From contig JABTTW010000001.1 of NCBI GenBank assembly GCA_015075745.1, positions 496,001-560,000 on the forward strand: DNA of 64,000 nt, written 5' to 3'. Origin of the DNA: Planctomycetia bacterium. GTDB lineage: Bacteria > Planctomycetota > Phycisphaerae > UBA1845 > UTPLA1. The position numbers and the translations under genes were made by a program. Below the pieces are notes generated by a model. That model searched no databases. It saw only the letters and a program-made list of their open reading frames with translations, and was not told the origin of the DNA. Shown here one piece after another: positions 22,301-43,960 of this stretch (the stretch's first letter is position 1; each line of letters starts with the position of its first letter).

Positions 22301-22328
22301 CCGCTTCCTCACGGGCGCGGCTCGGATC
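22301..22328 (+). repeat. Solo terminal-repeat copy of the valS element family
   Basis: These 28 bases end in GCGGCTCGGATC and differ at about two or three positions from the right-hand terminal inverted repeat of the valS elements. A shorter fragment (GCGACTCGGATCA) follows at 22339. No complete element is present, and the 47-bp tandem array begins directly after it. Confidence 0.6.
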
Positions 22329-39646: not shown

Positions 39647-42600
39647 TTATTCAAGGTCGGCAAGGTGCCGTTCGAGCATTTCTATCTGACTTGACAAATC
39701 CGCGGCGCGTGCTTTCGCGGCCTCGACCACCGACGGATCGGCCCGGGCGACGAAGTCCGCATTGCCCAATCGGGCGGACTCGCGGGACAGAACGCCGCGC
39801 AGCTCGGTCAGCTTCGCCTCTTCGGTCTTCTTCACCTCTGCTAAATCGACGAGGCCCGCGACCGGGGCATACACCTGCACCATGCCGCAGACGCGGCTCA
39901 TTGAACCGTCGGGCTTGGAAGCGCCTGCGCCGATGTCCATCGCGTCGCAGCCGGCGAGCGGGATGATGAAATCGCGAAAGCCGGTGAGCATCGACGAGAC
40001 CGACGCATCGCACTGCACCACAATCTTCGGAAGCGTGCGCAGCGACGGCTCTTTGGCCTTGCCGCGATAGTCGTTGACCACGGCGCGCATGTCGCGCACG
40101 GCGCGAATGACCTCCTGCACCGCCTCCATCTTTGCCTCGACGGCCTTGTCGCGCAGGTCGCCGTTCGCATCGGGCCACTTGGCCACGATGAGCGTCGCCT
40201 CGGCCTTGCCCACTGAGCGCAGGCCGCGGTCGGGGGCGGCAGCGCTGAGCTGCTCCCAGATGGCCTCGCTGACGAACGGGACAACGGGCTGAAGAAGTCG
40301 CAGGAGCTGGTCGAGGACGAAGACCATGACTTGCTGGGCGGCGGCGCGCTCGGACCCGGCGAGGCGTGGCTTGGTCATCTCGATGTACCAACTGCAATAC
40401 TCGTCCCACATGAAGCGATAGACCGCCCCCATCGCCTCGCTGAAGCGATAACGATCGAGCGATTCGTTCACCTGCTCCACGCAGGCCGACAGGCGCGAGA
40501 GAATCCAGCGATCGACGAAGCCGAGATTGGCCGGGTCCAGCTCTTGCGGCGTGTAGCCGTCGAGATTTGGAATGACGAAGCCGGTCGAGGCCTGCCAGAG
40601 CTTGTTGCAGAAGTTGCGGCCCTTCTCGAACTTTTCGCTGACGTTGATCGAGCGGCCGTCGGGCAGCTTCTTCGGCTTGACCGGCAGGCGGATGTCCTGC
40701 GTCTCGGTGGCGAGCTCCGCGAGGGTGTAGCGCAGGGCGTCGGCGCCGTACTCCTCGATGATGTCCACGGGATCGACGCCGTTGCCGAGGGTCTTGGACA
40801 TCTTGCGCCCCTGGCCGTCCTGAATGACCGGATGGATGACGACGTCGGCGAAAGGAACTTCGCCCATGTTGTAGAGGCCGGTGATGACCATGCGGGCGAC
40901 CCAGAGGGTGATGATTTCGCGCGCGGTGGAGAGCACGGACGTGGGATAATAATAGTTGAGCAGATTCTGATCCGAGCCGTGCGCGTGATCCGAGGGCGTT
41001 GCTTGATCCGAGGGCGTTGCTTGATCCGAGCCGCGACCGTGAGGGAGCGGGCCAGCCACGTCGGTATTCCTCGCATCCGCTCCAAAACCAGCATCGGGTG
41101 TTCCTGGACTTCCATCGATCATCGCGGCATCAGGCTCGCTGGTACCGCTCCCTAACGGTCGCGGCTCGGATCGGTGCGCGTCGGGCCAGCCGAGGGTTGA
41201 GTGCGGCCAGAGGGCGGAGGAGAACCAGGTGTCGAGGACGTCGGGGTCTTGCGTGAAGCCCTCGGCCAGCAATTTGTCCTCTATTTCTGGAAACCCCGGT
41301 GCAACACACATCAAGAGGATTGTGGTCTTCGCTTCAACGCTTGGCCAAAGATGTAGGTGAACCCCAGCTTTTTGATCCTTGCTAAGCTCAAGGTCGTCAA
41401 ATCCCTTTAAGTGGAGACCAGCCCAATTCCATGAATCGGCATCCTTGTGCGGAAACCAAGTTAAAGAATCTGAGCCATCCGCGATACTAACGAACTGTTT
41501 GGTCCAAATCGGTATTCGATGTCCCCACCAGAGTTGGCGGCTGATGCACCAGTCGCGCTTTTCGCTGAGCCAGTCGATGTAGGTTTTTGCGTACCGCTCG
41601 GGGTGGAACTTCACCTTGCCGCTTTTCACCGCGTCGATCGCCATCTGGGCGAGGCCCGGCAGTAGCGCGCCTTGATCCGAGCCGCGACCGTGAGGGAGCG
41701 GGCCAACCACGCCGGTATTCCTCGCATCCGCTCCAAAACCAGCATCGGGTGTTCCTGGTCTTCCATCGATCATCGCGGCATCAGGCAAACCGGTACCGCT
41801 CCCTAACGGTCGCGGCTCGGATTTTGCGTGCTCGATATACTCCTTCAAATATGGCGTCTGGATGCGGGCAAACTCCTCCTCCGTTAGATCGCCCATCTTG
41901 ACGAACCACTGATCGGAGAGGTACGGCTCGATCGGCGAATTGCTGCGGTCGGAGTGGGCCAATTCAATCTGCCGATCCTCGATCTTTTCCACCAGGGCCA
42001 GCGCTTCAAGGTCGGCGACGACCTTCTTTCTCGCATCGGCGAGCTTCATGTCCTTGTACGGCCCGCCGTGCTCGTTCACCTTGCCATCCGGTGTTATCAC
42101 ATTGATCACCGGCAGGTCATGCCGCTGGCCCACTTCGTAGTCGTTGAAATCGTGGCCGGGGGTGATCTTCACGCAGCCGGTGCCGAGGCTGGGGTCTGCC
42201 CACTCGTCGCAGACCAGGGGAATCTCGCGGTCCACCAGCGGCAGCAGAACCATCCGCCCCGCCTTGGCCATGTCGCGGAGCTTCATCAACGTCGGCAGCA
42301 GGTTCGTCTTGCGATCGGCGATGTCTTCGAGCTGCGCATGAATCGCCGGCTTTTCCTTTTCGCTCGCCTCGCGGAGCTTTATCTGAAGCTGCGTCTCGGC
42401 GACCTCCAGCGCCGCGTTCGGCTCGGGGTGAACGGCCACCGCCGTATCGGCCAGCATCGTCTCCGGGCGGGTCGTGGCGATGTGCACGTGCGTCGGCTCG
42501 CCGCTCTTGGCGTCCTTAATCGGATACTTGAAGTGGTAGAAGTGCCCCTTGACCTGCTCGTGGTAGACCTCGTCGTCGGCCACGGCGGTCTGAAGCTGCG

Positions 42601-43147
42601 TGTCCCAGTTCACCAGGCGCTTGCCGCGATAGATGAGACCGTCGCGGAACATCTTGAAGAACGTCTCGCGCACGGCCTTGGCGCAGCCTTCGTCGAGGGT
42701 GAAGCGCTCGCGCTCGTAGTCGCAGGAGCAGCCCATGAGTTTGAGCTGCTCGACGATGCGGCCGCCGAACTTCTCTTTCCATTGCCAGATGCGCTTGACG
42801 AGTTCCTCGCGGCCCAGGTCGTGGCGGCTCAGCCCCTCTTCCTTGCGGATGGTCTTTTCGACGGTCGCCTGGGTGGCGATGCCGGCGTGGTCGGTACCTA
42901 CGAGCCAGAAAGTGTTGGCCCCCTGCATGCGCTTGCGGCGGACGAGGATGTCCTGAAGCGTATTATTTAGAGCGTGGCCGAGGTGCAAGGCCCCTGTCAC
43001 ATTCGGCGGCGGGATGACCATGCTGAATCGCTGGTCGGGTCCGCGATCGTCGGGAGAGGGATGGAAGTGCCCCGCCTTGATCCATGCGTCGAAAATGCGC
43101 TGTTCATGCTCGGCGGGAGCGTACGATTTGGATTCACCTTTAGCCAT
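39647..43147 (-). CDS. valS: Valyl-tRNA synthetase with two in-frame repeat-element insertions
   Basis: ValS charges tRNA-Val. Signatures: PPPNVTGALHLGHALNNT (HIGH-type HLGH near 55-58), WWGHRIPIW, DVLDTWFSSALWPHSTLGW, and GRKMSKTLGNGVDP near residue 780; an anticodon-binding helical domain and a C-terminal coiled coil (AKARAADLSSQIEMLERH) follow. At 1166 residues it is about 200 longer than usual. The excess includes two near-identical element insertions (residues about 443-492 and 659-709), a six-residue tandem repeat up to about 727, and an unusual stretch at about 540-620. The start at 43147 is the first Met before family sequence; upstream the frame crosses REP copies. Confidence 0.93.
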   Translation of the reverse strand: MAKGESKSYAPAEHEQRIFDAWIKAGHFHPSPDDRGPDQRFSMVIPPPNVTGALHLGHALNNTLQDILVRRKRMQGANTFWLVGTDHAGIATQATVEKTIRKEEGLSRHDLGREELVKRIWQWKEKFGGRIVEQLKLMGCSCDYERERFTLDEGCAKAVRETFFKMFRDGLIYRGKRLVNWDTQLQTAVADDEVYHEQVKGHFYHFKYPIKDAKSGEPTHVHIATTRPETMLADTAVAVHPEPNAALEVAETQLQIKLREASEKEKPAIHAQLEDIADRKTNLLPTLMKLRDMAKAGRMVLLPLVDREIPLVCDEWADPSLGTGCVKITPGHDFNDYEVGQRHDLPVINVITPDGKVNEHGGPYKDMKLADARKKVVADLEALALVEKIEDRQIELAHSDRSNSPIEPYLSDQWFVKMGDLTEEEFARIQTPYLKEYIEHAKSEPRPLGSGTGLPDAAMIDGRPGTPDAGFGADARNTGVVGPLPHGRGSDQGALLPGLAQMAIDAVKSGKVKFHPERYAKTYIDWLSEKRDWCISRQLWWGHRIPIWTKQFVSIADGSDSLTWFPHKDADSWNWAGLHLKGFDDLELSKDQKAGVHLHLWPSVEAKTTILLMCVAPGFPEIEDKLLAEGFTQDPDVLDTWFSSALWPHSTLGWPDAHRSEPRPLGSGTSEPDAAMIDGSPGTPDAGFGADARNTDVAGPLPHGRGSDQATPSDQATPSDHAHGSDQNLLNYYYPTSVLSTAREIITLWVARMVITGLYNMGEVPFADVVIHPVIQDGQGRKMSKTLGNGVDPVDIIEEYGADALRYTLAELATETQDIRLPVKPKKLPDGRSINVSEKFEKGRNFCNKLWQASTGFVIPNLDGYTPQELDPANLGFVDRWILSRLSACVEQVNESLDRYRFSEAMGAVYRFMWDEYCSWYIEMTKPRLAGSERAAAQQVMVFVLDQLLRLLQPVVPFVSEAIWEQLSAAAPDRGLRSVGKAEATLIVAKWPDANGDLRDKAVEAKMEAVQEVIRAVRDMRAVVNDYRGKAKEPSLRTLPKIVVQCDASVSSMLTGFRDFIIPLAGCDAMDIGAGASKPDGSMSRVCGMVQVYAPVAGLVDLAEVKKTEEAKLTELRGVLSRESARLGNADFVARADPSVVEAAKARAADLSSQIEMLERHLADLE
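40969..41030 (+). repeat. 18-bp tandem repeat at the edge of a valS element
   Basis: GATCCGAG recurs at 40969, 40987, 41005 and 41023, exactly 18 bases apart; the two middle units are identical (GATCCGAGGGCGTTGCTT). On the valS strand each unit is six codons, giving repeats like SDQATP. The last copy is the terminus of the 150-bp element. Confidence 0.9.
41023..41172. mobile_element. Palindrome-ended element in valS, copy A (150 bp)
   Basis: It begins with GATCCGAGCCGCGACCGT and ends with its reverse complement; the terminal repeats are about 28 bases with one mismatch. The interior is almost identical to copy B. It is read in frame within valS: SEPRPLGSGTSEPDAAMIDG at the start and PLPHGRGSDQ at the end. 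It encodes no protein of its own, so it resembles a non-autonomous (MITE-like or palindromic) element. Confidence 0.85.
41674..41821. mobile_element. Palindrome-ended element in valS, copy B (~148 bp)
   Basis: Same structure and orientation as copy A, with only a few differences in the interior. It is read in valS as SEPRPLGSGTGLPDAAMIDG through PLPHGRGSDQ. The right-hand end lacks the last two bases of the terminal repeat. It lies between LKEYIEHAK and LPGLAQMAIDAVKSGKVKF of the enzyme. Confidence 0.85.
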
Positions 43148-43195
43148 GCGGCGATTATCGAGGAGCGGCGCGGGAGGTTCAAGCGGGGGGAGGAA

Positions 43196-43214
43196 TCGCC
43201 AAACGGCAAGCCGC
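43196..43214 (+). repeat. REP-like 19-mer, left of the RAYT gene (forward)
   Basis: TCGCCAAACGGCAAGCCGC. It forms an inverted pair with the copy at 43283 and lies between the valS start and the RAYT stop codon. Confidence 0.85.
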
Positions 43215-43282
43215 GAAGCCGGCTGCCGAGAGTCGGCGCTTTTCGCGAGACATTCGGCCGCTTGCCTGTTATTACCGAAGTG

Positions 43283-43298
43283 GCTTGCCGTTTGGCGA
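43283..43298 (-). repeat. REP-like copy, left of the RAYT gene (reverse)
   Basis: GCTTGCCGTTTGGCGA, the reverse complement of 16 bases of the 19-mer. It is 32 bp from the 3' end of the RAYT gene, facing the copy at 43196. Together they make a BIME-like inverted pair. Confidence 0.8.
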
Positions 43299-43330
43299 TG
43301 GATAACCAACCAGATAAAATCGTGAGAAAA

Positions 43331-43942
43331 TCATCGCCGTTCGCTCCACTCACCACGGTAAGGCTTCACAAAGGTGTATTCTTGTCTCGGGAGTCCCGAC
43401 TTCCCGGGATTGTCCTCTACATACTTGATAACGCCACAAACCTCATCCGCGCTGCTGAGGAATCGCTTATATTTGTCCTGGCTCCAAACTGGGTGATTCT
43501 GAAAACTCCCCGCCACGTTTCTCACGCTCACGGCAGATGCTTCAATCAAGGCTGTCATCATGACTTCCGCGCGATCCTGATGTCGCCTCATGACCAGGTG
43601 AGCGTGATTGGAGAGTATTGCACAGGCAAGACACGTGTACTCGCGAGACGCGACGACGTCCGTGAACGCCGTCGCAATCGCCTGCCGCTCGGCGAGATCG
43701 AACCACAGCACTTTATGCTTTAGATAAGACCGGGCATCGATTTGATGTCGCCTCAACTCACTTAGCGCGGGTTGGGTTGCCTTTCGGCCGAAGTGTATGT
43801 CGCCGGCCTGCCGCAACTGGGGTACTCGGATTTGCCGGGAAAGGCTTCCGCGAGGATCGTTCGGCAGCCAGTGACCGTAGCCTGTCAAAATGATGTGATG
43901 GGCGATGACCACGAGCGGGATCGTAGCATTTCTATATGCCAT
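43331..43942 (-). CDS. REP-associated tyrosine transposase (RAYT, IS200/TnpA-REP type)
   Basis: A Y1/HUH transposase of 203 residues. The family hallmark AHHIILTGYGHWLPNDPRGS is near the N-terminus; the HUH metal site is NHAHLVM (His113, His115) and a candidate catalytic Tyr is in VIKYVEDNP (Tyr174). RAYTs process single-stranded REP hairpins and are usually single-copy, domesticated genes. Here REP-like copies lie on both sides: at 43283 (reverse), at 43196, and at 43942-43960, which overlaps the ATG. A GTG 12 codons downstream is an alternative start. The gene appears intact. Confidence 0.87.
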   Translation of the reverse strand: MAYRNATIPLVVIAHHIILTGYGHWLPNDPRGSLSRQIRVPQLRQAGDIHFGRKATQPALSELRRHQIDARSYLKHKVLWFDLAERQAIATAFTDVVASREYTCLACAILSNHAHLVMRRHQDRAEVMMTALIEASAVSVRNVAGSFQNHPVWSQDKYKRFLSSADEVCGVIKYVEDNPGKSGLPRQEYTFVKPYRGEWSERR

Positions 43943-43960
43943 CGCCAAACGGCAAGCCGC
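43942..43960 (+). repeat. REP-like 19-mer overlapping the RAYT start
   Basis: TCGCCAAACGGCAAGCCGC, exact match to the other copies. Its first base is the third-strand partner of the ATG of the RAYT gene, so REP and start codon adjoin. A hairpin here would sit over the ribosome site. Confidence 0.85.

Follow-up and report, generated by a model that had tools for sequence, protein, structure and literature searches.

The valyl-tRNA synthetase gene (valS) of the genome analyzed here (G000; 5.0 Mb, 4 contigs) contains two copies, A and B, of a palindrome-ended element. We consider it highly likely that both are non-autonomous inverted pairs of the palindrome REP1 (a name given here), that they belong to a class-3 TnpA-Y1 (HUH) REP/RAYT family housed in essential genes, and that one of the two copies derives from the other. 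With less confidence, although we favor it, we propose that HUH transposases with REP ends have adopted an intein-like life-style without splicing, i.e., they would reside in frame in single-copy essential enzymes (AlaRS, ValRS, PurH, LeuRS), be translated as an extra domain, retain catalytic competence while under purifying selection, and seed non-autonomous REP pairs like those in valS into other permissive loops.

valS lies on the minus strand of the window, i.e., the 64,000-nucleotide stretch of DNA that was analyzed, at positions 39647–43147, with its ATG at 43147 and its end at 39647. The 1166-aa product was the single ValRS found in G000 and is complete (NCBIfam PRK05729, 995 bits, cutoff 704). 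Copy A (41023–41172, minus strand, 150 bp) consists of two REP1 arms of 28 nt in inverted orientation, at 41023–41050 and 41145–41172, around a 94-bp spacer, and is inserted in frame at a loop that we call site A. Copy B (41674–41822, minus strand, 149 bp) is the same unit again, in frame at site B, with inverted arms of 27–28 nt at 41674–41701 and 41795–41822. A sequence-only reading had reported two near-identical copies with inverted-repeat ends. Both were recovered, 95% identical, in identical orientation and 651 bp apart, with terminal inverted repeats (28 nt in A, 27–28 nt in B) that are 96% complementary; copy B ends at 41822 rather than 41821, one base further than reported. The same reading was right that both copies keep the valS frame open and encode nearly the same peptide: they lie within one unbroken frame and read SEPRPLGSG...PLPHGRGSDQ in the same phase. 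Five codons differ, all of them nonsynonymous and all in the spacer, and the arms are identical. Copy A is free of stops in two of its six frames, one of which is the valS frame.

AlphaFold gave pLDDT values around 30 for the peptides of copies A and B and 80–95 for most of the ValRS core, and both peptides are modelled as disordered. Folded as RNA, copy A was more stable than its shuffles (z −5.95, with 0 of 200 shuffles as good); a single 36-nt arm folded as DNA was no better than shuffles (z about 0). Three 18-bp tandem units stand beside copy A (40968–41021, minus strand). Each begins with the REP head TGATCCGAG, and their in-frame reading is part of SDQATPSDQATPSDHAHGSDQ. Another variable part of the protein, about 100 residues between WWGHRIP and DTWFSS (window positions 41280–41530), is very divergent among relatives and looks AT-richer than the remaining gene.

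The REP1 arm is the REP-like palindrome CCGCTCCCTNACGGTCGCGGCTCGGATC. At up to two mismatches we found 48 sites in G000 compared with 6 for the reversed pattern; a further copy in the window, outside valS, is at 22301–22328 (C1:518301–518328). A search of 61 related genomes gave matches in 39 of them, with copy numbers between one and more than 100; many have dozens. REP1 thus has one of the features by which REPs are recognized, i.e., an imperfect palindrome of 20–40 bp in many copies, and copies A and B, with two REPs in inverted orientation and a spacer between them, are built like a REPIN or BIME. The 150-bp unit, which the sequence-only reading took to be spreading, had no copies in the genome other than the two in valS; dispersal is seen instead for the REP arm of ~28 nt. 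The idea of a coding-compatible mobile repeat that spreads into genes is therefore retained in part: palindromic ends, permissive loops, sites that are empty in relatives and insertions made independently in other places agree with it, but the 150-bp unit itself is not what spreads.

Sampled REP sites were genic as well as apparently intergenic. Among the REPs of G019 and G044 sampled with Pfam, some lay within real genes (an Eco57I-type methylase and, with two REPs, a frame for a molybdopterin oxidoreductase), and others not clearly so. We found no target-site signature. G000 also has an imperfect repeat family of ~250 bp with about 28 sites of about 75–84% identity (e.g., L046:1400–1640 and the window at about 16018), which contains GGTACCGCTTGCTGACGCGCGCGGCTCGGATC and is followed by GAAGGTGACATAAG.

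One of the two copies most likely gave rise to the other, judged from the sequence, since G000 has the 94-bp spacer in no further place. Short-range re-insertion or conversion may have produced the second copy. One can also assume that a REP pair inserted only once into valS, that intragenic recombination or gene conversion, and not another transposition, produced the second copy, and that transposition has no current role in G000; this account agrees with our best explanation as to the first copy, and we put its chances at about even. The confinement of the spacer to the two copies, their shared orientation and phase, the identity of the arms next to a differing spacer, and the 18-bp tandem units as a sign of local duplication all speak for it. 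However, the copies stand 651 bp apart in precisely those loops in which REP and RAYT units arrived independently in other genera.

We compared these loops in an alignment of ValRS proteins from the order and from other Planctomycetota; all genomes are assemblies, mostly MAGs. Site A (STLGWP^YYPTS) corresponds to about residues 472–476 and site B (DQWFVKMG^LAQMAIDAV) to about residues 363–377 of Thermus thermophilus ValRS (1gax), and both are recurrent insertion points. The baseline loop length is 21–22 residues at site A and 21 or 38–39 at site B; the window ValRS has 90 and 99 residues, respectively. As the earlier reading had suggested checking, the loops are empty in many relatives, and unrelated palindromes fill them in others. 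We also looked for the same peptide in distant ValRS proteins, which that reading had named as evidence against a mobile repeat, and did not find it. Within the genus, site A has three different fillings: REP1 in G000, another palindrome in G001, where site B is short, and a third palindrome family in G002, which has degenerate palindromic sequence at site B. Single REP1 arms are found in the site-B loop of G005 and G015, REP1 pairs with other spacers at site A of G008 and G009 (in G008 in a different frame), and a REP2 pair at site B of G003. From the differences among these genomes, the comparison indicates that the loops have been filled and refilled. Part of the history of site B is, by the same kind of comparison, older than the genus.

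Simple peptide repeats (HTHNQP, SAASGSP, NDERPTT) and a further repeat peptide (SERSEESL) occupy ValRS loops of relatives (L222, L202, L219, L243). Near site A, the valS of G003 (L199) seems to break into two frames of 917 and 605 aa, through either a real frameshift or an assembly error.

In other relatives, the loops house more than palindromes. A complete HUH transposase domain with REP peptides on either side is found in frame in the ValRS of G017, G058 and G086 (site B) and G019 (site A). The three domains tested passed the Pfam Y1_Tnp cutoff. The RAYT fold was assigned from profile matches to IS200/IS605 TnpA chains (2f4f, 2xm3, 2a6m), and the motifs NHVH, W[TA] and YV..(E)Q fit class 3 of PMC6006769. 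A search of 114 genomes of the order with the ValRS-embedded RAYT domain gave 94 matches, many in very long frames. Hosts were identified for 27 of these, i.e., AlaRS (13 copies in 12 genomes, two of them in G029), PurH (7), ValRS (4), LeuRS (one, in G017), the amino-terminal region of MutS (one, in G110, start uncertain) and an Eco57I-type enzyme (one, in G055). Wider searches in a phylum sample of 392 and a class sample of 397 genomes added ten ValRS hosts, all at site B (G481, G311, G485, G693, G744, G634, G756, G738, G546, G602), three DUF1156-type hosts (G530, Pfam-checked, G538 and G520) and a PglX-like methylase (G404). The 41 embedded RAYT copies identified are thus in AlaRS (13), ValRS (14), PurH (7), LeuRS (1) and others (6), with complete REP-RAYT-REP units in the site-B loop of 13 related ValRS genes. 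The first four enzymes account for 35 of the 41 hosts, well above their genome share. Outside the order, most RAYTs of this group in the phylum are free-standing.

The class-3 RAYTs in frame in DUF1156 proteins, the PglX-like methylase and the Eco57I-type enzyme (L433:2348–6883; L432; L435; L363; L351) suggest that DNA-methylating systems form a second group of hosts. In the AlaRS of G029 (L352:3780–8837), a single open frame of 1686 aa holds two RAYT domains, which differ from each other and lie at separate sites. At the MutS locus (L356:1064–5287), the RAYT lies upstream in the same open frame with a long SPGIHAGSSA... array between, and the MutS start is unclear.

Y1_Tnp exceeds its cutoff inside hosts that pass their own family cutoffs, and hosts score as full equivalogs (alaS 839, cutoff 457; leuS 1027, cutoff 548). 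We checked 14 genomes for further copies of the RAYT-bearing AlaRS, PurH or LeuRS and found none apart from a second PurH fragment in G070 (contamination estimate 8%) and a short additional LeuRS-like match in G102 that does not host a RAYT. ValRS is single-copy throughout the order. G001 and G002 are congeners of G000; the site filled in the AlaRS of the former and the one filled in the PurH of the latter are both empty in G000. The predicted model of an AlaRS-RAYT protein was poor overall (pTM 0.34), and its fold search returned AlaRS-type matches alone among the matches listed. As the majority of genomes are MAGs, one might suspect assembly artefacts or chimeras. We regard this as extremely improbable: the same architecture is present in the single-contig assemblies G003, G014, G481 and G404, and dozens of independent genomes show it with different RAYTs.

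Most embedded RAYTs have an upstream REP in one orientation and a downstream REP that is inverted. REP1 pairs with a YLITFHTYG subfamily (in AlaRS, at ValRS site A and in several cases at ValRS site B), REP2 with an LLTWTTYG subfamily (in PurH, LeuRS and the other ValRS site-B copies). The relatives hence have RAYT genes flanked by their own REPs, and the embedded copies possess HUH and Tyr motifs and a Y1_Tnp domain, as characteristic of REP/RAYT systems. Next to some embedded RAYTs (e.g., in G083, G110, G055, G002), our flank scan detected neither REP1 nor REP2; some of these carry other repeats.

These flanks also bear on the comparison with Rickettsia palindromic elements (RPEs) made by the sequence-only reading. 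REP/RAYT of class-3 TnpA-Y1 type fits better, given that the ValRS loops that house copies A and B contain entire REP-RAYT-REP units in relatives. A family of RPE type, unrelated to RAYTs and spreading into genes by its own mechanism, would share the life-style of the valS copies, i.e., palindromic, in frame and in exposed loops, as RPEs are described in PMC3733652. Yet class-3 RAYT genes embedded in the AlaRS and ValRS of relatives have this very palindrome, REP1, as inverted flanks, which leaves such an origin improbable.

Host labels change repeatedly along the RAYT tree, which leaves out seven later-found ValRS copies (G693, G744, G634, G756, G738, G546, G602): 4–6 times for ValRS, 6–7 for AlaRS and 1–2 for PurH. 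Strongly supported branches alone force two changes for ValRS, two for AlaRS and one for PurH. Because the tree needs several separate origins, the same loops were entered repeatedly. PurH occupancy looks largely inherited.

For the PurH of G014 and G003, we compared the RAYT (dS 0.68, dN 0.087, ratio 0.13) with the downstream host part (dS 0.60, dN 0.065, ratio 0.11); this is one pair, and in other pairs the synonymous sites are close to saturated. Since dS and dN/dS of the RAYT are like those of the host part, this one pair indicates a RAYT that has been resident since the species split and is under purifying selection. We examined 31 embedded copies: every one keeps the Tyr, and 30 keep HxH, the exception being the PurH copy of G074 with DRVH. 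Selection comparable to that on the host and conserved catalytic residues could also be expected if the embedded transposases had been co-opted for the host enzyme, e.g., for tRNA or DNA binding, with REP peptides as useful linkers. We think this unlikely, although less so than an RPE-type origin, given that one genus mixes occupied and empty species, that the same loop holds different RAYT subfamilies and that the window peptides show no constraint. That the inserts are removed at the protein or RNA level like inteins or introns, leaving a mature enzyme without them, is suggested by their intein-like location in single-copy essential genes. But no intein or splicing domain was among the Pfam and NCBIfam hits of the window ValRS and of the embedded hosts tested, an intein needs more than the roughly 50 residues of a REP pair, and the insert boundaries vary; we hold removal to be very improbable.

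The window contains a RAYT-like HUH transposase gene upstream of valS (43331–43948, minus strand; NF047646, 36 bits, below the cutoff of 80) with a YVEDNP motif, which is class-2-like. We rejected it as the mobiliser of REP1, since its REP_Tyr_transpos score is below cutoff and its motif class differs. Between this gene and valS is a perfect 18-nt inverted repeat ATCGCCAAACGGCAAGCC (43195–43212 and 43282–43299), which could be a terminator or the own end of this RAYT. The RAYT-like genes of G000 comprise one class-3 RAYT at C3:175273 and two others. The class-3 gene has no REP1 flanks within 1.5 kb and was therefore discarded as the cognate of REP1 in G000. Copies A and B may now be immobile, because no REP1-flanked RAYT was found in G000, where the flanks of this class-3 gene were scanned.

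We propose that the REP/RAYT family survives by inserting, in frame, where housekeeping enzymes have permissive loops at their surface. As some frames of REP DNA are free of stops and would yield short disordered linkers, the host enzyme would still work. The REP-RAYT-REP unit that sits as an inserted domain in ValRS loops, AlaRS, PurH and LeuRS of relatives would be the autonomous form; the RAYT-host fusion is probably translated whole, and the RAYT would move REP1, which in G000 presumably entered both ValRS loops. The host's need for an open frame would guard the embedded transposase against frameshifts and stops.

How REP/RAYT systems persist in the long term is an open question. A refuge in essential genes would answer it, if true, since the transposase is spared frameshift and truncation where the frame of its host is selected. 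ValRS, AlaRS and PurH of these bacteria would then be natural maps of insertion-tolerant loops. For annotation, synthetases in this group may exceed the expected length by hundreds of residues and risk being discarded as errors.

REPs owe their name to their extragenic position. In-frame intragenic REPs are nevertheless already known: PMC3733652 describes GTAG/CGTC-tagged palindromes, which form short dimers in frame within genes of Opitutus, Rickettsia, Thauera and others, sometimes two per gene and including tRNA synthetases. In the text consulted, REPs alone are reported inside genes, without a transposase, whereas here relatives house the whole RAYT too; the palindrome families also differ, and the hosts here are uncultured Planctomycetota. 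Class-3 RAYTs are likewise known as genes, from PMC6006769, with the three motifs named above, an occurrence in Planctomycetes and CnGA-footed flanking structures; REP1 has a matching CCGA ahead of its palindrome. In that study unusually long proteins were discarded as fusions or annotation errors, and the RAYTs described are genes, not domains within essential enzymes. Whole RAYTs housed in essential or housekeeping enzymes appear to be new, in that we found no prior description of them in the open-licence literature. Like REPINs and BIMEs, copies A and B are non-autonomous, with two opposite REPs around a spacer, but they lie in frame in an essential gene and their spacer exists in two copies only. 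With RPEs they share a palindromic, coding-compatible nature and a place in functional proteins, a likeness of life-style; for REP1 the RAYT association is visible. By analogy to inteins and homing endonucleases, an enzyme of a mobile element resides in frame in single-copy essential genes and would be shielded by the open frame of its host. In contrast to inteins, there is no splicing domain, the inserted domain probably remains in the protein, and an HUH transposase takes the place of the endonuclease.
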